Origin: Candidatus Sulfotelmatobacter kueseliae
GTDB lineage: Bacteria > Acidobacteriota > Terriglobia > Terriglobales > Acidobacteriaceae
Reading direction: 5' to 3'
Length of the DNA stretch: 64,000 nucleotides
Assembly: GCA_900290255.1 (NCBI GenBank)
Contig: OMOD01000150.1
Span: 73,553 to 137,552, forward strand
Shown: in pieces, positions 19,897 through 38,617 of the stretch
Numbering within the stretch: position 1 is the stretch's first letter
How the letters are laid out: each line of letters starts with the position of its first letter
Program-made: the position numbers and the translations under genes
The notes under the pieces: model-generated
Databases searched by the model: none
Seen by the model: the letters and a program-made list of their open reading frames with translations, nothing else
Told to the model about the DNA's origin: nothing

Positions 19897-20964
19897 ATGA
19901 ACCCTCCGGTCACAATGCGGCAGATTGCGGAGCGGGCCCGAGTGTCCATTGGCACGGTGTCGCACGTAATCAACGATACGGCCAAGGTGCGGGAGAAGCT
20001 GAGGCAGCGGGTGCTGGAGGCGATTCGCAGCCTGGGTTATCAGCCCAGCCAGCTGGCGCGGGGGCTACGCCGGAACCAGACCAGCATGCTGGTCATGATC
20101 ATCCCGGATGTGACCAACCCGTTTTTCCCCGCGGTGGTGCGCGGCGTCGAGGATGTTGCCTACAGTAGTTCTCTTCGTCTTGTACTGTGCAATACCGATA
20201 ACGACCCGCGCAAAGAAATCTCGTATCTGAACGAGCTGCGGGCCTATCGTCCTGCGGGATGGCTGGTGATTCCGGCAGCAGACAGCGAGATCGCGGCCCA
20301 CTTGAAATCCCCGGTTCCCGGATCTCCCGTGGTCTGCCTTGACCGGCAGCCCAAGGGCTGGAGCGGAGACGTGGTGCTGGTGGCTAACGAGGCGGGAGCC
20401 TATAGCGCCACGCGACATCTGCTGCGCATGGGTCACCGCCAGCTAGCGGTGATTACCGGCCCGTTACATCTGGCCAACGCCGTGGAAAGATTGAATGGAT
20501 TCAAGCGCGCCCTTGCCGAGGCCAAGGTCTCCATCGAACCGGACTATGTTCAGGAAGCCCGTTTCGAACGCAACAGCGGGTATCACGCGGCCAAGCGGCT
20601 GCTGGGAATGTTGCCCCGGCCCACGGCGATTTTTGCCTGCAATGATCTGATGGCGCTGGGCGTGCTGCTGGCGGCTCGTGAACTGGGTCTGCACTGTCCC
20701 GAAGAGCTATCCATTGTGGGATTTGATAATCTCGATTTCGCTGAATTCACCGCGCCCGCGCTGACCACAGTGTGCCAGCCCGGCTATCAACTGGGAACCA
20801 CGGCGGCGCGCCTTTTGTTGGAACGGATTGCCGGTCTGAAGCAGCCTCCGCAGAGGGTAGTTCTGCCGACTGAGTTGAAAATCCGCAATTCGGTTGCTTC
20901 TCCGTCCAGCGCGCATTCTGCTCCCGAACGGAAGCAGAGCGGAGAGGTAGCCGAGGTCTGTTAA
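19897..20964 (+). CDS. LacI/GalR-family transcriptional regulator
   Basis: 355 residues. N-terminal helix-turn-helix with the classic MRQIAERARVSIGTVSHVIN pattern and hinge helix QPSQLARGLRRNQT, then a periplasmic-binding-protein-like sensor (MLVMIIPDVTNPFFPAVVRG, FACNDLMALGVLLAARELG, LSIVGFDNLDFAEFTAPALTTV). It binds operators as a dimer and is released or activated by a small ligand, usually a sugar. The start at 19897 may be replaced by ATG 19915, which directly opens the HTH. A palindromic operator candidate lies upstream. No sugar transporter or glycoside hydrolase is adjacent; the tRNA-Ser integration site follows. Confidence 0.94.
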   Translation: MNPPVTMRQIAERARVSIGTVSHVINDTAKVREKLRQRVLEAIRSLGYQPSQLARGLRRNQTSMLVMIIPDVTNPFFPAVVRGVEDVAYSSSLRLVLCNTDNDPRKEISYLNELRAYRPAGWLVIPAADSEIAAHLKSPVPGSPVVCLDRQPKGWSGDVVLVANEAGAYSATRHLLRMGHRQLAVITGPLHLANAVERLNGFKRALAEAKVSIEPDYVQEARFERNSGYHAAKRLLGMLPRPTAIFACNDLMALGVLLAARELGLHCPEELSIVGFDNLDFAEFTAPALTTVCQPGYQLGTTAARLLLERIAGLKQPPQRVVLPTELKIRNSVASPSSAHSAPERKQSGEVAEVC

Positions 20965-21132: not shown

Positions 21133-21171
21133 GGAGGGATGCGTGAGCGGTTGAAACGGGCGGTCTTGAAA
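21133..21171 (+). repeat. attL: partial tRNA-Ser copy (5' half)
   Basis: 39 bp identical to the first 39 bases of the intact tRNA-Ser(UGA) at 38528-38566, running from the acceptor 5' strand through the D arm to the anticodon loop (ending CTTGAAA). After that the sequences diverge (GTGG here versus ACCG in the tRNA). The upstream bases also resemble each other (TATTGAGTATAAAG here, TATTGATTATAAAG at the right end), so the element brought its own similar promoter. This half gene is the host's displaced 5' part and cannot make tRNA. Confidence 0.9.
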
Positions 21172-25482: not shown

Positions 25483-25716
25483 TCAACCGGGTCGTGCTTT
25501 AATGGATGAATCTTTTTCTGATTCATACTCTTTGAGTACCTTCAAACACTTTGCCAGCTTGATCACCCGCACAGGCTCCCGCCGACAGATTTTCTCCAGC
25601 GTGTGCTGATTGATTCCCCTGCGCATGAATTCCCGTTTGGGAACTTTTGCGATCCGCGCCAATTGTTCAGTCTGGAATGGTGCGAGCGGTATTGTCGTCC
25701 AAACGCCCCTCAGCAT
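25483..25716 (-). CDS. Small putative DNA-binding protein after the R-M gene
   Basis: 77 residues. Contains PKREFMRRGINQHTLEKICRREPVRVIKLAKCLKVLKEYE, a helix-rich region with spacing like a minimal HTH. Its start overlaps the 3' end of the MmeI-like gene by 50 bp, so it is translationally linked. A regulator (C protein-like) or accessory of the R-M enzyme is possible but unproven; known C proteins usually lie upstream. No RBS stands out. Confidence 0.55.
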   Translation of the reverse strand: MLRGVWTTIPLAPFQTEQLARIAKVPKREFMRRGINQHTLEKICRREPVRVIKLAKCLKVLKEYESEKDSSIKARPG

Positions 25717-28529
25717 CTGCCGCTTCTCTAGTAGTGGCGGCCCGTTCGTGGTTCAGTTGGAGCAACCGTTTTAGGATTTCGGCATTCGTAAGCGATGCGG
25801 GCCAGCCATAGGCGGCAAAAACAGCCTCATCTAGCTTGCGATGCGCATCCGCTAGCCACGCGGGGTACGCGTTGTAGAGATTCGTGAGCGTGCGCGTCTT
25901 CAACTCTTCTGCGCTTGCGCCGGGCGGATTCAGCCAAGCATCACGCCTTTCAACAAGCTGGCGGGCGGCCCGTACAATCGCTTCCACTAGCAGTGATTTT
26001 TCCGGTTCGTGACCGGGCGGCCACGGGAAAGGAAATGTCTCAAAACAAGTGGTGTTGTTGTATGTCGGGTCGTTTCCAACCCCATGCCAAGAGCAAGTTG
26101 CGAGTGACCACACTTCGTGAATGCGGGAGTGCAGAATGCCAAAGAGATAGTCGTCATCTCTAGCAAAGGCATAGACTCGCGTGTCTGGTACGACATCAAC
26201 AGGTGCCCAAACGAACATCCTATGTTTTGCGACACGGGGGGTTAGGATGACACGATTCTTGCCTACCCGTGCCAGTTTCAACTCGCCGCCGCTACGTCCC
26301 AGCCTCCACCATTTCCTCTTTCTTTGCTCGTCCTTATTCTTGTCACGGACGGGTTTTACATAAGCCTTGACATACTCAAAAGGCGCTTCGTACAAACAGG
26401 CGTCAGCCTCATTCATCTCTCCAAAATCAATCGTCCATTCATTTCGGGTGAGGCCAGTTATGTCATCTGCGTTTATCGTTGGTTTCACCACATCGGAATT
26501 GGGCTTTCCGTGCGGATTTGGGGAAGCTAGCATCACTTGCGCGACTGAGTTTGGAATATCGAAGGGGCCGACTTTGACCGGACCTTGAAATGATAGGTTC
26601 ATGTTCTCTGGAAGCCGGGGAACGCTTGACAAGTCCAGTCCACTCGTCAGGTCCGCGTTAATTTTCAACACTGACTTGCCGTCTAAGACGCCATCTTCGG
26701 CACTGCCTTTCTTTTCAAATCCGATGATAGAAACGCGGACCGCCGCTCCGTCCAGTATCCACTCGCGGTCAGACCACGCCATGAAGATGCGGCATTCCTG
26801 GACTAGGTGTTGTAGCACTTTATTGCTGCCGCCGTCTCGTATCGAATTGGTTGCAAGCAATCCAACTCTCTTGGTTCTACCCGAAACAACCTCTTCGCGT
26901 GCCCGCTCAAACCAGAATGTCACCAAGTCTGCCGCGCCCGTCACGGCGTCGCTATATATGCCCCTGAGTTCGTCAACGTAAGTGTCGCCAAGCCCGGTTC
27001 GCATTTTTTGACTTCCAAGGAAAGGCGGATTGCCGATGATGAAATCCGCTTGCGGCCACACGGGTTTGACAGGTTTACCATCATCGTCGTGCGCAAGGAT
27101 GGCATCACGATGCTGAATGTTTTCCAGCTTGCGCAAGATCGGCTCAGTGGGCCAGCCAATCGCGTGCTCATTGAGCCATTGCAAATAACCAATCCACACC
27201 ACAACGGATGCAAGCTCTTGCGCGTAAATGTTGGTTTCCAGCCCAAAGAGTTGCGCCGGATGCACCTGTTTTTCCAGAAATGTTGGAAGCCCATGCTCGG
27301 CGGAAAACACACGCGCCTCGTGCCACAGATCAAGCAAACGGCGCAACGCGAGATAGAGAAAATTTCCACTGCCACAAGCCGCGTCAAGGATGCGCATGCT
27401 TGCAAGCTCATCCATCCAAGCGAGAATTTTGCCTTGCAGTTCATTGCGTAGCTTGGCGTGGGAGCGTCCCTTTTCCTTTTGTGCCGCATGGGCAAGCGCC
27501 GTCGCCTCAGCTTTGATGCTTTCCCAACGCCGCGACAGCGGGGCAACCACCACAGGCTCAACTATCAGCGAAATATCCTCACGGCTTGTGTAATGCGCGC
27601 CAAGCTGTGAGCGCTTGCCCGGATTCAAGCTGCGTTCAAAGAGCGTGCCAAAGATGGCGGGTTCCACTTGTGACCAATCCAGCGCGGCGGAGGCGCGCAA
27701 GACGGACATATCCGCCGTCGTGAGTTCAAATACCTCATCATCAGCAAACAGCCCGCCATTGAAATAGTGAATATCGTGCGGGCCAAAGGTGCTGCCACTC
27801 GCTGACATTGCGGCAAAGAGTTGGCGCAACTTGCGGGTGAAATTGGCGGGCTTGCTCCGGTCAACGTCAATCATTTGCCGAAACAAGTTATCCGGCAGGA
27901 GTTTGATGCTGTCCGCGAAAAGGCAAAACAACAAGCGCATGAGGAAATGGGCCACCCGCTGCGGCTCAACGCCGCGCCCCTCAAGCCCGTCCGCCAACTT
28001 GGCAAACTCAGCGGCCACTTGCTCAGTGACGCGCGTGCGGGCCGCCTCAGGGTGTAATTGCTCTGGATTGAAAAAGACTGCCCGCAATACTTCCAATGGC
28101 GGCAGTGCACAGTTTGATGTTGGTGTGCCTGATAACAGGTCATCCAAGGTGAAACTGTAAACTTGCGGGCGCGCACCCGTGAAATTGGTGTGAATCTCAA
28201 ACCGCTCTTGGTCGCACGTCACCAAGAGCGGTGGGTTTTCCAAATCCCCCTGATAGCGCACAAGCTGGCTATAGGCCGCACTCAGGCTCTTGTGCTTGCC
28301 TTTGTATTCCCATCCGAAAAATCCGCGCTTCCAAACATCGGCAAAGCCCTTGCCATCTTCCAAAGTGCTTTTCAAAAGTAAATGTGTCGCCTTTTTGGTC
28401 AGCCGCAGCCGGGTGGGGGTGCCCAAGCACTTCGCACAGGTCAATGAAGTGAGTTTGCGCGGCGGAGCGCTCTGAGAGAGTGCTGGCCTTCCAGCGTTCG
28501 ACGAATTCAAGTAAGGAAAGGGATGGCAT
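25667..28529 (-). pseudogene. MmeI-like type IIL restriction-methylation fusion, frameshifted near the N-terminus
   Basis: Reconstructed about 950 residues, near MmeI (919). The true start is ATG 28529, MPSLSLLEFVERWKAS..., in one frame; homology passes into the neighbouring frame at about 28362-28378 (TFEK then LEDGKGFADVWK), implying a one-base insertion (or two-base loss). Downstream the frame is open. Seen: the endonuclease motif D-X9-E-X-K exactly as in MmeI (D codon 28337-28339, E 28307-28309, K 28301-28303), N6-adenine methyltransferase motif I DAACGSGNF (about 27370) and motif IV GNPPFLG (about 27025), then a target-recognition C-terminus. MmeI enzymes cut and methylate in one polypeptide. 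The lesion may be real, or an assembly error at the A/T runs. It is the element's likely defence cargo. Confidence 0.85.
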
Positions 28530-28917
28530 GAACTTTCTTCGTTGGCGGGTGCGAACAGACGATTGTACCGCCTTCTTTCCGTGTTCGGTGCGCTGTGAAG
28601 TGTGTGAGGCAACTCCACTCATTGACCGTCCGGCGATACCCCAACCAGCCCCGCCAGCGCTTGCCAGTGCCTCGGATGTGGCCGGTAGCCCTCACGGATG
28701 CGGCCAGCGCACCAGCGCGAGACTGAAAATGGGAAAGGGCGTGGACATAGAACATCTGCTTGAAGGTTTGGAAGGTGAGTTCTATGGTACCGATAGACCC
28801 ATGGGCCAAGTGGTAGGCGCATCCGCCACGGCGAGCAGACGCGCGATGGTCCGGGCCGCATTGGCCCGCGTGGTCGCCTTGGCTGGAAGCAACCCCCATC
28901 ACGCACCGCCAAGCTCA
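28530..28917. other. 388-bp gap upstream of the R-M gene
   Basis: Weak candidate ORFs only. A forward ORF at 28731-28950 (MGKGVDIEHLLEGLEGEFYG...) lacks a good RBS. On the reverse strand 28619-28730 reads SVSRWCAGRIREGYRPHP then HWQALAGLVGVSPDG, which looks like the tail of an XRE-type HTH regulator, but no convincing start exists; it may be a broken regulator. The R-M promoter should be here. Confidence 0.35.
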
Positions 28918-29097
28918 TCAGATGGCACCGCACGCGGGTGTGATGCCTGAATTCTCCCGCACAAACTTTGTCAAGGCACCGAGCGAGACGTTCTGTTGCT
29001 CCAACTTTTTCAAAAGGTCGCGTTGCAAAGCGACCATGTCTTGTACGGCGGCAGTGAGCTTCTCGATTTTTTCCATTTGTTCCTTGGACTCAAACAT
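28918..29097 (-). CDS. Small coiled-coil protein (59 aa), unknown
   Basis: ATG 29097 preceded by AGGAGGA at optimal distance, one of the best RBSs in the element. Reads MFESKEQMEKIEKLTAAVQ, then DMVALQRDLLKKLEQQN, a heptad-rich coiled coil, and a short C-terminal tail GITPACGAI. Size and position after the terminase suggest a phage-type accessory or scaffold-like small protein, but no family is recognised. Confidence 0.65.
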   Translation of the reverse strand: MFESKEQMEKIEKLTAAVQDMVALQRDLLKKLEQQNVSLGALTKFVRENSGITPACGAI

Positions 29098-30496: not shown

Positions 30497-32041
30497 TTAC
30501 CAAGTTGGTAAATCTGAATCACTTTTTTCCGGTGTGTTCCCCGGCTCATCGTCAATAAACTTTTGCAGCGATGAGTCTGCATCTTTCAAAGCATTCAATG
30601 GGTGGGCCGGGTTATCCACCGTGATAGTCCCGGTGGTTCCCCCATCGGTGAGTTGCTTAAAGAAACCCTCTCCGCGCATGAATCCGGCCTGCGAGTAGGT
30701 GTAGGCATCAGTTTGGTCATCATGAATACACAAGGGGAACTCTTCTAGCTCTCGAATGAACTCCTCTTTCCATGGCGCATCTTCCGGCAAGTCAACCTGA
30801 CCATTGTTTTGAGCGCTTGCAATCGCTTCCGCTCTCAGTTCTTTCTTCGTGGTCGGCAACACCGGAATAGGTTGCAACAACGAAGGCCGCAACAGGTTCG
30901 CATAGTTGATCTCCTGCAGCATTTGTTGGCCGGAGCTTGCATCTTCGATAAAGACTTGCGGCATGAGTCCAAATTGTTCGTAAGTCTCACACCATTTCAT
31001 GTACACCAATTGCTTCATCTGAGGAAAAGGCGGCTTGCCCCGGAACACGTCCAAGACTGCAAAGCGCCCGGTGTTCATCAAGGCCACGAGCACGCCAACC
31101 GTGTAATCATTCGCGGCTGCGGCTTTGCCTGATGCGAAGTCCCATCCCCAATTGAGCATGATGGGGGAAGCCAAGCCGAGTGTCCCCCACTTGTCACGCG
31201 GGAAGAGGCAATCCGCGCCGACTGACGGACGGCACATATACAAGGCTTCCCATTTCCGGGGCCTCATGGTCGCCCGGATCTCTTCAAGGGCGGCTCTCGG
31301 ATGCACTTCCGGCCATAGGGCTTCATACGGCGGAAAATATTCCTTTGCACCTGTCAATGTGTTTTCAATGTAGCTGTCTTGCCCTTCATCATTGGTCGCA
31401 GCCAAGACCACAATGACCCACTGGCGTGCGGCTTTGTTCTGCCGCGCCACTCGCGCATTCTCCATTGCCAAGTCGCTCAAGTGCCAAGGTGTTGTGCAGA
31501 TGCAACTCTTTCTTGCTCTTGGTGCGATGACTGAAAAATAGTTTTCATTGATGGTCGCCCGCACCGTGGGACTCATGGCGTCCTTCTCGTTCCGGCAAAC
31601 ATCGTCTATGATTGCGTAGTCGGTGGTGTGGCCTGCAATGGAGCCATTGAGCGGCGCACCCACAAGCGAGAAGCGGCCATCCTGCCCCGGCACATCAAGC
31701 AAGAGTGCATTTTGCGTGTCTTTCTCCCCCATTGGCCAGCCATACTCATGCTGCCAGTATTCGCCTTTCATGGTGTTGCGGTTTGCGACCACGGCACGTT
31801 GCACCAATGGGTTGCCGTAAGCCGTCAGTAAGACGTGCGTCCGGGGATTCCGACCGAGCAAATATGAAGGCAAGCGATCTGAGAACACGAAAGACTTACC
31901 ATGTTGCACCGGCATGAGGCACATGAAATTGGAAATCTCATCCTGTACCCATCGGTCAATTTGTTCACTTATCAGTTGATGATGTTTCGGCACCGTCTTG
32001 AATGGTGATGTCTCCATCAGATAGTTGAGGAAGTTCGGCAT
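30497..32041 (-). CDS. Phage terminase large subunit (TerL)
   Basis: 514 residues; ATG 32041 with AGGAGAT RBS. The packaging motor ATPase and headful or cos nuclease. ATPase part: Walker A variant MPVQHGKSFV near residue 45, Walker B TDYAIIDDV near residue 140, coupling-like SCICTTPWH. Nuclease part: first acidic site NWGWDFASGK near residue 268, second QVFIEDASSGQ, third HDDQTDAYTY near the C-terminus, the order of RNase H-fold terminase nucleases. The length is normal and no lesion is seen, so it could be active. It overlaps the TerS-like gene by 77 bp. A terminase without portal or capsid genes nearby is the key clue that the element may be a satellite. Confidence 0.9.
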   Translation of the reverse strand: MPNFLNYLMETSPFKTVPKHHQLISEQIDRWVQDEISNFMCLMPVQHGKSFVFSDRLPSYLLGRNPRTHVLLTAYGNPLVQRAVVANRNTMKGEYWQHEYGWPMGEKDTQNALLLDVPGQDGRFSLVGAPLNGSIAGHTTDYAIIDDVCRNEKDAMSPTVRATINENYFSVIAPRARKSCICTTPWHLSDLAMENARVARQNKAARQWVIVVLAATNDEGQDSYIENTLTGAKEYFPPYEALWPEVHPRAALEEIRATMRPRKWEALYMCRPSVGADCLFPRDKWGTLGLASPIMLNWGWDFASGKAAAANDYTVGVLVALMNTGRFAVLDVFRGKPPFPQMKQLVYMKWCETYEQFGLMPQVFIEDASSGQQMLQEINYANLLRPSLLQPIPVLPTTKKELRAEAIASAQNNGQVDLPEDAPWKEEFIRELEEFPLCIHDDQTDAYTYSQAGFMRGEGFFKQLTDGGTTGTITVDNPAHPLNALKDADSSLQKFIDDEPGNTPEKSDSDLPTW

Positions 32042-32537
32042 TGATGATCTCCTTTCTGCGCGATTGCACCAACTCGCGCACCATGGTTAACGCTAACTGC
32101 CTTGTCTCTTCATCGGCATCAAGCAATTCCTGCCGGATGTCCAAGTACAACGCATCAAGCTGCGGGCCGGAAACATGACCGACAATGCTTTTCGAGGGGG
32201 CAGCAGTGCCCTTTATCTTGGAATCTTCGCGGATGACCGCCAGTGCAAGCTCAATTCTCTTTTCAGGCGGGATGAGAAAATCCTCCAATTTATCGCGGAG
32301 TTTGTTGAGTTCCGCGATATGCTCATCGCGCCATTGGTCATATTGGCTCATGTTCTCTTTTACCCATTGTCCGCGCATGGATGTAACATCCCGCCGAAGT
32401 GTGCGCGGGTCTGCCGGATAACCTTCAGAGCGCAGTATCTCTGCCGCTTCAACTTGGCTCTTGCCTTCGGCCAGCAACTCCAGCAGGCGATTCTTACGGG
32501 CTTCAATAGTGGCCGTATCTGACTTTGGTGCGCTCAT
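31965..32537 (-). CDS. Putative terminase small subunit (HTH N-terminus)
   Basis: 190 residues from ATG 32537 (MSAPKSDTATIEARKNRL), chosen for the GGAGAAAG RBS; the longer frame to 32564 overlaps the AlpA gene. N-terminal HTH (RLLELLAEGKSQVEAAEILRSEGYPADPRTLRRDV) followed by long helices (DQWRDEHIAELNKLRDKLEDF) suited to oligomerisation. This layout, directly upstream of and overlapping terL by 77 bp, is the usual place and form of TerS, which recognises pac or cos DNA. Sequence similarity to a specific TerS family is not evident by eye, so the call is mainly contextual. Confidence 0.7.
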   Translation of the reverse strand: MSAPKSDTATIEARKNRLLELLAEGKSQVEAAEILRSEGYPADPRTLRRDVTSMRGQWVKENMSQYDQWRDEHIAELNKLRDKLEDFLIPPEKRIELALAVIREDSKIKGTAAPSKSIVGHVSGPQLDALYLDIRQELLDADEETRQLALTMVRELVQSRRKEIINAELPQLSDGDITIQDGAETSSTDK

Positions 32538-32734
32538 GCCACTTTCTCCAGTTCCTGCAACCATTCGGTCACGGCTTCCCGCGAGAAGCGCAGGTTCCCA
32601 TTGATCCGCAGCACCGGCAATGGGTGGTCGCGCATGTTCCCGTTGCGCGTGCGTGATTCGGTCATGCTGTAGATTTGCCGCTTGGACATCTTGAGCATGA
32701 CTGCCAGCTCATCAACGGTTAAGATTTCACACAT
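32534..32734 (-). CDS. AlpA/excisionase-type HTH_17 protein
   Basis: 66 residues: MCEILTVDELAVMLKMSKRQIYSM then LPVLRINGNLRFSREAVTEWLQELE, the complete MerR-like winged helix of AlpA and many excisionases. Such proteins activate integrase or excise elements and are a hallmark of PICIs and P4-like satellites. It overlaps the TerS-like start by 4 bp and lies 6 bp after the winged-helix gene, so it is inside the replication-packaging operon rather than beside the integrase. Confidence 0.88.
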   Translation of the reverse strand: MCEILTVDELAVMLKMSKRQIYSMTESRTRNGNMRDHPLPVLRINGNLRFSREAVTEWLQELEKVA

Positions 32735-32740
32735 GGCCCG

Positions 32741-33121
32741 TTACTCCGTTGGTTGAGATTCGGTTTGCTCAGGCTCCGGTTTCGAAGCCGGTGGTTTTGG
32801 GTCAAGCTTTTCGTGCAGATATAGCTCTCCCTTTTCAGTCAGCTTGAAAATCTGCGCCTTGCCGTGCCCGGTCTTTTCCGCTTCAATAAGTTTCTTTTCG
32901 AGCAGGAAGGTGATGAGAGGTTCCCAATCCGGCATGAAAACCCGCTCACAACACTTCGCGGCAAGTTCCCCCTCACCGAGAGTCCCCCATCGGCGCAAGT
33001 TGCGTAACACTTTCATCAGTCGTTTGTCGGTGATGAGGTCGCCAGTCAATCCGCAGAATTGATCGAAAACCTCACTCTTCATATCCACCGGGGCCGGTGG
33101 TTCTTTTGTGCTGTAAGTCAT
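32741..33121 (-). CDS. Winged-helix-like protein of unknown function
   Basis: 126 residues. Central part reads DKRLMKVLRNLRRWGTLGEGELAAKC then LITFLLEKKLIEAEKTGHGKAQIFKLTEKGELYL, the helix-helix-wing pattern of PadR/MarR-like domains. The C-terminus is Pro/Glu-rich (PKPPASKPEPEQTESQ) and likely disordered. Its start overlaps the stop of the primase gene by 4 bp. It could be the element's transcriptional regulator or a replication accessory; no family can be named. Confidence 0.7.
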   Translation of the reverse strand: MTYSTKEPPAPVDMKSEVFDQFCGLTGDLITDKRLMKVLRNLRRWGTLGEGELAAKCCERVFMPDWEPLITFLLEKKLIEAEKTGHGKAQIFKLTEKGELYLHEKLDPKPPASKPEPEQTESQPTE

Positions 33122-35166
33122 ACGTTCTCCTTTGGCTTATCGCCGTCGAAAAGTTCATCTTGCTTTACTGCTTGTGGTTTCTTTTTCATGCTCCAAGTCT
33201 TGCCGTCCCGAACTACACCCATCTCCCGGCAAACATCTTTGACGGTGCTCAAGCTGAAGCCGCGAGCCGACATTTCCGCGCCTGCTTGTTGCGTATCCAC
33301 CGGGCCGTTGGCAAGCATTTCCGTCAGCCAGCGGCGAATCCGGGTCTTAGCTCCGTTATCCTTGTCCGAATTTCTTTCTAGCAGTTCATCGGCGGTGCGC
33401 GTCTCTTCGCCTTTCATCACCACACAACCAACACCATCTTCCCCATCGGCGGGGTCATCCAATGGGCACTCGGCGGGCCAGTCTTTCCCTTCAACGATGT
33501 ACTTGAACCCGCGTTTCTGGCCGTGCTTGTTGCGGGCCTGAAGCATCAATCTTTGCACCGGGTTATCCGGGTCTTTCACCAAGTACCACGCGCACGGCAC
33601 TGCGGCCATGAGTTGAATGGAACCTGACGCAACCTTGATTACGGAATCAACCACCGCCTTGGTGGTGTGAGCGCTGGTTAACAATGCCGTATGTGTTTCC
33701 TGCGCGATGGGGTTGAGCAATCCGGTGATCCTGCGAACATCCGTGGCTTTATTCAAATCAAGAGTGCCCATGAAATCCGCGATTGGGTCAATCACACCAA
33801 GATCGGCCTTCTCTTCTAACAAAGCTTCCTTGAACAGTTCGAGATGTCGCAGGTCATTCAACATCCACGGAAGTTTTTCTCCATCCTCTGCGAGTACATG
33901 AAGCACAGGAATAATCAGATCTAAGTTCGCCCGCGCCACAATCAGGCGCGGCTTCCACACGGAGTCATACGCATCTTCGCGGCAAATCAGCAGTGTTTTC
34001 TTTCCTTGCCGCGACAATTCCGCCATGTGGCAACACTCCATCAGGGACTTTCCGACATCGGGCAAGCCGACAAACATATTGAGTGCATCTGCCATGAGCA
34101 CATGCCGCTTGACCCACTTTGGAGATTTATACTCAACTTCAGTCATCGTCTTTCTTATCAGGAACAACTTGCGCGGCACGGCCTTGTTGTTCTCATAGAC
34201 TCCGGGCGGATACGGTCCTTGATCTTCTTCAAGAGCTGCGATTGCTTCATGGACCGAATGCTTGTCACATCCGGTTGAGTTGCAATGAAAGGCCAGCCCA
34301 CCATCTTTGCAGGGATAAATGAAGTTGGTGCTAGTCGTGTTCTGCCCTACATGCGGCTCACAATGCTTGAGGGGACAATTTCTCAGGCGGATACAATGGC
34401 CTAAGTCGTTGTCGGTTTCGTTGTCAATTTTCAGTCCATAGAAATTGAGAAAGTCTTTGATGTCGAAACCTGCGAGCACTTTGCGTGTTTTCGTTTTTGC
34501 TTTTTCGCGGGTCTCTGTCTTTTTCTTTTCCGGCTCGGCTGGCAACCGGCTCCATTGGTCGGGGTCTATCGCTTGGAGTTCTTCACGTATCTTTGCGCTG
34601 ATGTGCGCGGCGGTAGAGCATACATACTGCGCATCATCACCGACATCTTTGAGAATGTTGAATGCCGGACCTACCAACTCACCTGTAAGAGCAAAGAAGC
34701 GGGGCGCATGTTTTGGTGCCCACATTTGCAGGCACGTCTCACTAAGCTGGCGGGTGCGTATGTTGCCTTTCACCAACACATGCAAACCGCATCCTGACAC
34801 GGAGATTTCCGACCATGACTGCCAACGGCTCAAGGCGATCATCGCCTCATTGCACACAATCCCGGTGGTCGCATTGCGGCAATGGTCGAAATCAAACGGC
34901 AGGATGTCACCACCGGCCATACCTTCTATATAAGTGAAGCAGTATCCGACCCCATCACCGGGCCGCAACTTTTCAAAGACTTCATCGAACGAACACCAGT
35001 TCCCATCTTCATGCTTTGGCGCGGAGTGGCTACCACGCGGTATCTTGGCAAAGGCTCCATTGCCTTTCGACTTCAAGAAATATGGCAGAAACCTGCGATG
35101 GGGGAGCATCTCCGAAGGTAGATTCTTCAGGAGCAATGCTTTCAGTTTTTGTTGTTCGTTCGTCAT
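33118..35166 (-). CDS. Primase-helicase replication protein (PrimPol-like plus RepA-like ATPase)
   Basis: 682 residues from ATG 35166 (GGAAGGA RBS); ATG 35181 is the longer option. N-terminal primase-like part: GGDILPFDFDHC near residue 68-79 gives the catalytic DxD pattern, then a conserved SVSGCGLHVLVKG segment typical of PrimPol/DUF-type phage primases. A Cys/His cluster (CPLKHCEPH, CNSTGCDKHS) follows, probably a zinc finger. The C-terminal ATPase is RepA/AAA_25-like: Walker A FVGLPDVGKSL, Walker B LGVIDPIADF, and TSAHTTK. Satellites such as P4 and PICIs use one such primase-helicase for self-replication. The candidate origin lies about 0.8-1.1 kb upstream. First gene of the main leftward operon apart from the 35297 gene. 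Confidence 0.85.
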   Translation of the reverse strand: MTNEQQKLKALLLKNLPSEMLPHRRFLPYFLKSKGNGAFAKIPRGSHSAPKHEDGNWCSFDEVFEKLRPGDGVGYCFTYIEGMAGGDILPFDFDHCRNATTGIVCNEAMIALSRWQSWSEISVSGCGLHVLVKGNIRTRQLSETCLQMWAPKHAPRFFALTGELVGPAFNILKDVGDDAQYVCSTAAHISAKIREELQAIDPDQWSRLPAEPEKKKTETREKAKTKTRKVLAGFDIKDFLNFYGLKIDNETDNDLGHCIRLRNCPLKHCEPHVGQNTTSTNFIYPCKDGGLAFHCNSTGCDKHSVHEAIAALEEDQGPYPPGVYENNKAVPRKLFLIRKTMTEVEYKSPKWVKRHVLMADALNMFVGLPDVGKSLMECCHMAELSRQGKKTLLICREDAYDSVWKPRLIVARANLDLIIPVLHVLAEDGEKLPWMLNDLRHLELFKEALLEEKADLGVIDPIADFMGTLDLNKATDVRRITGLLNPIAQETHTALLTSAHTTKAVVDSVIKVASGSIQLMAAVPCAWYLVKDPDNPVQRLMLQARNKHGQKRGFKYIVEGKDWPAECPLDDPADGEDGVGCVVMKGEETRTADELLERNSDKDNGAKTRIRRWLTEMLANGPVDTQQAGAEMSARGFSLSTVKDVCREMGVVRDGKTWSMKKKPQAVKQDELFDGDKPKENV

Positions 35167-35296
35167 GCTCGTTCCTTCCAAAAATTGTGAAGGCCGATGG
35201 TTGTGATCCCATCGGCCCGCGAGACAGTTTCAACTTGTGGCTGCGCACGCCCCGTCCCGTCACCTTGCGCCCTTACTGGTGACCTCAATCACGTGT

Positions 35297-37131: not shown

Positions 37132-38283
37132 TTACTTGCTGAGGGACTTTTGTTGCGCGGCCTCTTCCAAAAGCCGCATACCTTTCTCGCCTTGCTCAAG
37201 CGAAGTCTTCAGGTAGTTCTTTTCGAGCACCGCATACGAGTTGCCGAGCACTTGGAATCCGGCCCGGACATCGCCTGTCAGATTGACTAGCATTGTCGCG
37301 CAACCACGGCGGGCGGCATACAAGCCTTTCCATTTCAAGCCTTCATCGGCAATCAATGGGAGCATGACGTTCCTGACGAAGCTCTCAACGTTGAGCGGTC
37401 CGTTCTTCTGGTTCGGGAACACCCAACCCACTGTGACGTTGCCACACTTCGCCCGCCACAACTTGAGCAAACCTTTGACCGGCTGAATCAATGTGATGGT
37501 TCGTTGTGACCGCTGAGTTTTGGTTGTGCCCACGACACCGCGCACTGCACCTCGGCGAATGTGAGTGAAGTGCTCATCCACGTCACCCCATTGCAACCCG
37601 GCAATTTCCGAAGGCCGCAGGCCCAAGAAGAACGCGAGTGCAAACACCGCCTGAGCATCCACACGCGAGACTAGCGCGGAGATGGTGTTCTCGGCCTCTT
37701 CCAGTGTGTAATGTTGTGTGGGGTTTGCTGCGCGGACCTTGGCCAGCACCTTCACATCGCGCCAAGGATTATTCTCAATCAATCCAAGGTTGAGAGCGTG
37801 TGTGAAGATGCCACTGGCGAGTGAGCGAACGTGCGAGAGTGTGTTGCGGGTTAAGGGCTTCACCAGTGACGTGAGAAATTCGCTGCCTTCGTGGGTGCGG
37901 TACTCGCGCAAGGTGCGGTCTTTGAAGTGATCCTGCAGATAGATGTTCCAAAGTTTGGTGTAACCGCGATGGGTGGATGGCCGCAGATTCTCCTTTACCC
38001 ACGGCTCATACTTTTCATCCCAAAAATCAGGCACCGTCCAATTGCGCCCGTTCGTTCTTGGTGTGGCCCCGGCTTCGGCATTGACTTCCCCCATCACCTT
38101 GTCTCGGATCAGCTTCACTGCATCCGAAAATTTGTATCGCTTGCCCCGTTTGCGAAACGTGTGCTCCTTGTCGGCAACACACAATTTCCTGATGGCCCGT
38201 TTGCCTTCGGTGTCGTAAAATCGCACGTAGAAGGTGCCTGAACGTTCGATGATCTGCCCGTTTTGGTGTCGTGTATTTGCCAT
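37132..38283 (-). CDS. Tyrosine recombinase (phage integrase)
   Basis: 383 residues from ATG 38283 (MANTRHQNGQIIERSGTFYV); a longer frame to 38451 is out of register with any RBS. N-terminal arm-binding-like region, SAM-like core-binding domain (NLRPSTHRGYTKLWNIYLQDHF), and the catalytic domain: box I Arg in GLRPSEIAGLQWGDV, Lys in GTTKTQRSQRT, box II ARRG, and nucleophile Tyr in EKNYLK near the end. The box II His is replaced: YAARRG instead of H-x-x-R, a natural variant in some integrases. It lies next to attR and would catalyse integration at the tRNA-Ser anticodon-loop region. Confidence 0.92.
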   Translation of the reverse strand: MANTRHQNGQIIERSGTFYVRFYDTEGKRAIRKLCVADKEHTFRKRGKRYKFSDAVKLIRDKVMGEVNAEAGATPRTNGRNWTVPDFWDEKYEPWVKENLRPSTHRGYTKLWNIYLQDHFKDRTLREYRTHEGSEFLTSLVKPLTRNTLSHVRSLASGIFTHALNLGLIENNPWRDVKVLAKVRAANPTQHYTLEEAENTISALVSRVDAQAVFALAFFLGLRPSEIAGLQWGDVDEHFTHIRRGAVRGVVGTTKTQRSQRTITLIQPVKGLLKLWRAKCGNVTVGWVFPNQKNGPLNVESFVRNVMLPLIADEGLKWKGLYAARRGCATMLVNLTGDVRAGFQVLGNSYAVLEKNYLKTSLEQGEKGMRLLEEAAQQKSLSK

Positions 38284-38287
38284 GGCC

Positions 38288-38446
38288 TCACCGTTCCTCT
38301 TCCGGGATGGTGACCCATCGCCGCAATGTTTTGGACCAGTAGACGGGAACACTCCGAATGGTTTTGTGATTCGGCTCTCCCGCTTTGTGCCAAGTTTTCG
38401 TATGACCTTGATACTGCGGTTTCGGTTTGTGTTTGGTGTTCGCCAT
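38288..38446 (-). CDS. Small basic ORF preceding the integrase (possible RDF/accessory)
   Basis: 52 residues from ATG 38446: MANTKHKPKPQYQGHTKTWH, then NHKTIRSVPVYWSKTLRRWV and IPEEER. Ends 4 bp before the integrase ATG, so it would be translationally coupled. The MANTKH start echoes the integrase start MANTRH, perhaps from duplication. Basic and rich in aromatic residues, it could bind DNA as a directionality factor, which is a guess. The GGGCAC site lies just upstream. Confidence 0.55.
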   Translation of the reverse strand: MANTKHKPKPQYQGHTKTWHKAGEPNHKTIRSVPVYWSKTLRRWVTIPEEER

Positions 38447-38464
38447 GCCATCAGTATGGCACAT

Positions 38465-38527: not shown

Positions 38528-38617
38528 GGAGGGATGCGTGAGCGGTTGAAACGGGCGGTCTTGAAAACCGCTGTACGGGAAACCGTACCGGGGGTTCGAA
38601 TCCCTCTCCCTCCGCCA
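38528..38617 (+). tRNA. tRNA-Ser(UGA), intact, CCA encoded
   Basis: Cloverleaf seen: acceptor GGAGGGA pairs with TCCCTCC, discriminator G and encoded CCA at 38615-38617; D arm GCGTGAGCGGTTGAAACGGG region; anticodon loop CTTGAAA with anticodon TGA; long variable arm TGTACGGGAAACCGTAC typical of class II serine tRNA; T arm GGGGGTTCGAATCCCTC. The 5' half is shared with attL, so the element's integration rebuilt the gene with an element-derived promoter and 5' half and a host 3' half. Confidence 0.97.

Follow-up and report, generated by a model that had tools for sequence, protein, structure and literature searches.

An MmeI-family restriction-methylase (R-M) gene in Candidatus Sulfotelmatobacter kueseliae is interrupted near its 5' end by a change of reading frame. 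We assign a probability of roughly 0.7 to the explanation that this Type IIL gene is optional cargo of a 17.4-kb phage-satellite-like element and was recently inactivated by a net deletion of 8 nt. Four things are observed directly: the two reading frames, the 8-nt difference from homologues, a downstream frame that stays open, and an element whose insertion site is empty in relatives. The gene is an ordinary broken copy in the well-known MmeI/Type IIL family. Coordinates refer to the window, that is, the whole 64,000-nucleotide stretch of DNA that was analysed (from contig OMOD01000150.1), unless another locus is named. Features of the gene are as follows, with their sources in parentheses.

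25667..28529, minus strand: MmeI-family Type IIG/IIL restriction-methylase gene, broken close to the 5' end (ORFs, Pfam, PADLOC, homologue L015)
28368..28529, minus strand: first 54 codons, in frame 1, encoding the beginning of the nuclease domain, MPSLSLLEF...FTFEK (ORF list, PADLOC, L015)
28360..28373, minus strand: frame-change junction, net 8 nt below nine homologue rows (DNA and loop-length alignments)
28301..28339, minus strand: catalytic D-X9-E-X-K, read in the downstream frame (sequence; spacing of MmeI D70/E80/K82)
28269..28271, minus strand: TAG closing the N-terminal frame (ORF list, sequence)
28259..28261, minus strand: candidate restart codon GTG, downstream frame, 7 bases past the TAG (weak ribosome-binding site)
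25670..28360, minus strand: downstream frame, with the nuclease remainder, helical spacer, methyltransferase, target recognition and C-terminal bundle (Pfam, fold)
27383..27385, minus strand: Asp of methylase motif I (DAACGSGNF), invariant in alignment A1 (sequence and alignment)
27020..27031, minus strand: methylase motif IV, NPPF, invariant in alignment A1 (sequence and alignment)
25483..25716, minus strand: 77-aa ORF overlapping the 3' end of the R-M gene (ORF list)

Homology to the enzyme is divided between two overlapping ORFs on the minus strand. The longer (25667-28618, 983 aa) begins ahead of the lesion, runs without interruption to its stop at 25667, and matches the PADLOC Type IIG profile PDLC03627 with E=3.4e-248. 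The shorter (28269-28622) lies in another frame and holds the true N-terminus of the R-M protein; its residues 38-86 match positions 5-55 of the same profile, in order. When the intact homologue L015 was used as a query against the window, its residues 1-57 aligned in one frame and residues 56-937 in the other, with 84% identity over the first 57 residues and 69% along the downstream frame. Because the two pieces align to neighbouring segments of a single homologue, the split is beyond what chance would produce. The homology switches frame at about 28373-28360, and with this change the gene lacks the uninterrupted reading frame of the MmeI family. A first-pass annotation of this DNA had described a single-chain MmeI-like R-M enzyme whose N-terminal residues lie in another frame, with a switch near 28362-28378. 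The Pfam MmeI domains, the PADLOC assignment and the L015 match to both pieces agree with that description; residues 1-54 are those in the other frame, and the two estimates of the switch overlap.

In the 983-aa ORF, the helical spacer, methylase, target recognition (TRD) and C domains of MmeI score above the Pfam cut-offs. MmeI_N falls below its threshold (25.3 versus 27 bits) and is matched from profile position 51 only; the R-M gene sequence that corresponds to the missing first 50 positions sits in the other frame. The full series of MmeI domains is therefore a property of the gene's ancestry and not of any single chain as sequenced. The nuclease motif, D-VWKRGFFGW-E-Y-K at 28339-28301, has exactly the spacing of MmeI D70/E80/K82, as the annotation had also claimed. 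In MmeI, changing any of these three residues to alanine abolishes endonuclease activity, according to the available text of PMC4833311. The methyltransferase motifs that the annotation had noted are likewise present: the D, C, G, N and F of motif I and the whole of NPPF are invariant in the 25-row alignment A1. The 77-aa ORF that overlaps the 3' end had no match in Pfam, NCBIfam, PADLOC or PHROGs, and scans around the R-M gene for promoters and terminators gave no excess over shuffled sequences.

The lesion itself was characterized by comparing lengths. In a DNA alignment of homologues from Acidobacteria, the R-M gene is net 8 nt shorter than 9 of 9 rows (eight distinct sequences, as L020 and L033 are identical; three rows are broken elsewhere in the gene), and the shortage falls between the FEK codons and the GFADVWK codons. 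Of 116 homologue rows, 114 have 11 residues in the loop encoded here, one has 12, one has 6 and none has 8; some rows are the same contig present in two collections. Judged from these sequences, a small real deletion fits better than a single miscalled base, because of the 8-nt shortage and the near-constant loop length. Alignment with intact homologues had been suggested as a check on the first-pass annotation. It reveals the expected frame change, but the gap is 8 nt net and not the one base on which the proposed sequencing error or slippage at TTTTGAAAAG depends. We therefore rejected both as the simplest account; only a +1 shift could restore the frame by slippage there, and the site lacks a stop codon, a repeat tract, any known shift signal and any run exceeding 4 nt. 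Loss of three codons together with insertion of one base would give an equal net length and may be an alternative route; no homologue has a loop shortened in that manner. The pentamer AGCAC at the junction is consistent both with where the upstream frame ends and with where the downstream frame starts, and this overlap would suggest that the deletion arose by slippage between short repeats.

In the scheme we favor, the deletion would have struck the loop that connects the beginning of the nuclease domain to the catalytic Asp. Ribosomes starting at 28529 would translate about 54 residues correctly and then about 32 out of frame before stopping at the TAG at 28271-28269. Given this early stop, no full enzyme would be made and the nuclease would be unable to assemble, so that restriction activity has presumably been lost. 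The suggestion that the gene acts as a defence against phages is thus unfounded for the copy as sequenced, in which the nuclease domain is split. Overall, the first-pass interpretation holds for the type of enzyme, its motifs, the frameshift and the satellite-like carriage, and not for the one-base error or slippage or for active defence.

The carrier is an element inserted in a tRNA-Ser gene, with these features.

21133..21171, plus strand: attL, a displaced 5' fragment (39 bp) of tRNA-Ser (repeat comparison)
38528..38566, plus strand: attR, the same 39 bp inside the complete tRNA-Ser (repeat comparison)
38528..38617, plus strand: tRNA-Ser (TGA)
37132..38451, minus strand: tyrosine integrase (Pfam, PHROGs)
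33118..35181, minus strand: primase/helicase-like replication protein (Pfam, PHROGs)
32741..33121, minus strand: 126-aa ORF, 49% identical to the sister element's (comparison)
31965..32564, minus strand: ORF just upstream of the large terminase, 45% identical to the sister element's (comparison); small-terminase-like, to judge by position only
30497..32041, minus strand: terminase large subunit (Pfam, PHROGs)
28918..29097, minus strand: 59-aa ORF, 64% identical to the sister element's, the last shared gene before the cargo region (comparison)

The ends of the 17.4-kb element are a 39-bp repeat equal to the first 39 bases of tRNA-Ser. In relatives G014 and G008 the element is absent and the esterase gene, tRNA-Ser and right flank adjoin, which provides an empty site. 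With its integrase and tDNA-fragment ends, the element is accordingly classed as tRNA-integrated. Genes for replication (primase-like) and packaging (terminase large subunit) are present without a full structural set, as in a satellite: no match to capsid or tail proteins was found at E<=0.01 among 16 element ORFs compared with PHROGs, from which divergent capsids may escape. Searches of IMG/VR with the terminase or primase recovered no relatives of the element. The 5'-fragment geometry is uncommon, since Islander holds 159 islands with a 5' tDNA fragment and 3760 with a 3' fragment, as given in the available portion of PMC4383910. As we read the sequence, the 5' half of tRNA-Ser was displaced by the element, which brings its own 5' half and promoter-like upstream bases. 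The esterase gene is separated from attL by a LacI-type regulator gene (19897-20964), which is missing from the interval between the esterase gene and tRNA-Ser in G014 and G008.

A sister element occurs elsewhere in the same genome (locus L149, 8709-18349, contig C147, G000:C147). Its integrase is 39% identical to that of the window element, and the other shared proteins are the 126-aa ORF (49%), the ORF before the large terminase (45%), the large terminase (27%) and the small ORF (64%); it also carries a replication-like ORF. Unlike the window element, it has no MmeI-like gene. Because five genes are shared and the MmeI-like gene is not, the R-M gene is optional cargo, situated away from the integrase end, and the earlier term "satellite cargo" is a fair one. 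No tRNA gene was found within the 53 kb scanned around the sister element, and no att site was recognised, only one 15-base repeat. In another genome of the genus (L168, 11255-13251; G011:C5), a large terminase that shares 80% identity with the sister element's adjoins a 36% match to the ORF preceding the sister element's large terminase, and this locus is possibly a further member of the element family.

Whether the deletion is present in the organism itself has to be weighed against an assembly or sequencing artefact, in which case the gene would be intact and would encode an active Type IIL enzyme. The source is a draft assembly of 198 contigs with 8.46% contamination, the downstream frame is conserved like that of a functional gene, and a homologue in a Myxococcota MAG (L053, 9817-12547) also changes frame within this nuclease loop, at a run of six Gs (G6) that is prone to one-base errors. 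By contrast, eight missing bases at a site with no run over 4 nt would be an atypical base-call error. As a control for indels, 11 flanking host ORFs were queried; the four that match relative G014 (residues 2-638 of 638, 4-237 of 250, 1-469 of 469 and 9-312 of 325) are all free of frame changes, so indel errors are not obviously rife in this region, to the extent that four genes can indicate. Additional support for a real lesion comes from 22 of 30 rechecked homologue loci, which have one unbroken frame along the gene, and from a different broken allele that recurs unchanged in two MAGs (L020 and L033). Confirmation from a second copy was not obtained: the R-M protein has only one match in its own genome, and a 34-base junction pattern had no exact match in IMG/VR. 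On balance we consider an artefact unlikely, and we infer that the organism carries the deletion. A regulated frame, in which slippage phase variation or a programmed +1 frameshift yields some full-length enzyme, would have precedents in H. pylori, where homopolymers switch Type IIG genes on and off and change their specificity (PMC3936762, in the text available). Lesions also lie in the same loop in two family members, the window gene and L053. However, these two lesions differ in cause, the difference in the window is 8 nt and not 1, and the hypermutable simple-sequence tract of phase-variable Type IIG genes is missing from the frame change. We therefore regard regulation as highly improbable. 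The idea, prompted by L053, that the loop is a hot spot or phase switch was also discarded, as runs of at least 6 nt occur in only 3 of 89 homologues having the loop in one frame, a set that does not include L053.

The state of the downstream frame bears on what has happened since the break. Downstream of the lesion, 130 of 132 near-invariant positions are kept, and one of the two deviations is common to the window and L015. The ratios of changes at codon positions 1+2 to those at position 3 are similar on the window branch (0.181/2.63) and the L015 branch (0.158/2.12), in a test that is weak because position 3 is close to saturated (dS over 2) and the tree does not place L015 as sister to the window. 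The amino-acid branch is longer for the window (0.314 versus 0.262), and parsimony assigns 43 replacements to the window only and 18 to L015 only, with 32 and 17 silent changes, respectively (Fisher P=0.68). Relaxed selection after the break was considered and is not clearly seen, since the replacement-to-silent ratio is not clearly raised. Because this part is so well preserved, either the break is recent, as we suppose, or the methylase part remains in use. The 2.7 kb without clear decay count against simple inactivation to the extent that they are also compatible with a methylase still in use.

Such a methylase could exist if the nuclease was lost and the remaining frame is translated from a restart codon (GTG 28261, or TTG 28363 or TTG 28375) to give a solitary adenine methyltransferase marking element and host DNA. 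CamA, or the lone methylases found in temperate phages, would be its functional analogues. An AlphaFold model of the 864 aa that follow from GTG 28261 has a mean pLDDT of 85.5, which predicts a well-folded protein. A fold search with this model returned MmeI first (5hr4; E=6.8e-35, TM 0.68/0.77) and then the CamA adenine methyltransferase, and the model has the overall fold of MmeI apart from the nuclease. Phages and prophages carry more lone methylases than expected, and yet solitary genes rarely derive from degraded complete systems, both as stated in the accessible sections of PMC4176335. None of the three restart codons has a good ribosome-binding site (best match 3-5 of 6, partly at the wrong spacing), though the native start at 28529 scores only 4 of 6 too. 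A recent break explains the conservation equally well, and lesions that spare everything but the nuclease are about as frequent in the family as chance predicts. A solitary methylase therefore seems to us quite improbable. Its most specific form, that the deletion produced a nuclease-free, self-marking 864-aa protein by stopping at the TAG and restarting at GTG 28261, and that methylation of satellite and host DNA helps the satellite to escape being restricted by enzymes of this kind that are still intact, is more doubtful still. Inactivation of a cargo gene remains our preferred reading.

Broken alleles are not peculiar to the window. Our survey covered 398 genomes from the host's bacterial family, of which 89 had a match at E<=1e-9, many to more distant enzymes. 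Lesions located away from contig ends number seven: the window's own, G576=G659 (one allele), G513, G585, G680, G418 and G590, the last being a fragment of about 110 residues without which the count is six. Loci were dropped as contig ends (G702, G744, G593, G766, G490), as ambiguous with the N-terminal part on another contig (G589, G654), as short remnants (for example, G170:C11, G667, G745, G669, G545, G754, G724, G024), or as another family (G252). Only the nuclease is affected in two of the seven lesions, those of the window and G576=G659 (P(>=2 of 7)=0.37), or in two of six when G590 is omitted (P=0.30). A bias by which the nuclease goes first had been hinted at by loci ranked by match quality; trial tallies of 4/9 (P=0.06) and 5/11 (P=0.03) included loci that were later excluded because they were contig ends, split copies or members of other families, and the idea was abandoned, as 2/7 or 2/6 is about chance. 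An identical frameshifted allele of the family occurs at about position 10240 in L020 and L033, two Acidobacteria MAGs with different sample labels, which indicates that broken alleles persist. At L047 (3401-5779), a homologue has no match to the first 140-170 residues and another reading frame lies directly upstream; it is a candidate for a naturally nuclease-free form, or else an assembly join.

For annotation, this R-M gene is best left out of any tally of active defence genes on satellites. Defence surveys based on profile match alone could over-count, as the broken gene still scores E=3e-248 and broken alleles recur several times in the family survey. Should the methylase part still be produced, the gene would represent a lone methylase formed by loss of the nuclease in place, a route that the text available of PMC4176335 reports to be rare.

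Among known systems, the H. pylori Type IIG genes JHP1272 and HP1353-HP1354 are interrupted by frameshifts like the window gene, but they shift at homopolymer repeats, whereas the window site has no repeat tract (PMC3936762, as far as its available text goes). The homologue L015 from an Acidobacteriaceae MAG (PLXE01000023.1) is unbroken, unlike the window gene; the 16.4 kb of its contig that were compared have no match to the window's other element proteins or flank proteins. CamA, the second fold match after MmeI, corresponds to the methylase and recognition part. CamA is an enzyme of Clostridioides difficile and is not known to have a nuclease. MmeI itself (Type IIL; PDB 5HR4; Pfam PF20464-PF20467, PF20473) is the only PDB sequence match at E<=0.001 for the intact L015, and the downstream frame of the window gene is 22% identical to it over the fold alignment. 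The two differ in the TRD, which is divergent and matched only at profile positions 125-205 of 207, and in the nuclease domain, which the frame change splits in the window gene. They share the same domain order, the D-X9-E-X-K spacing, the motif I Asp and NPPF.
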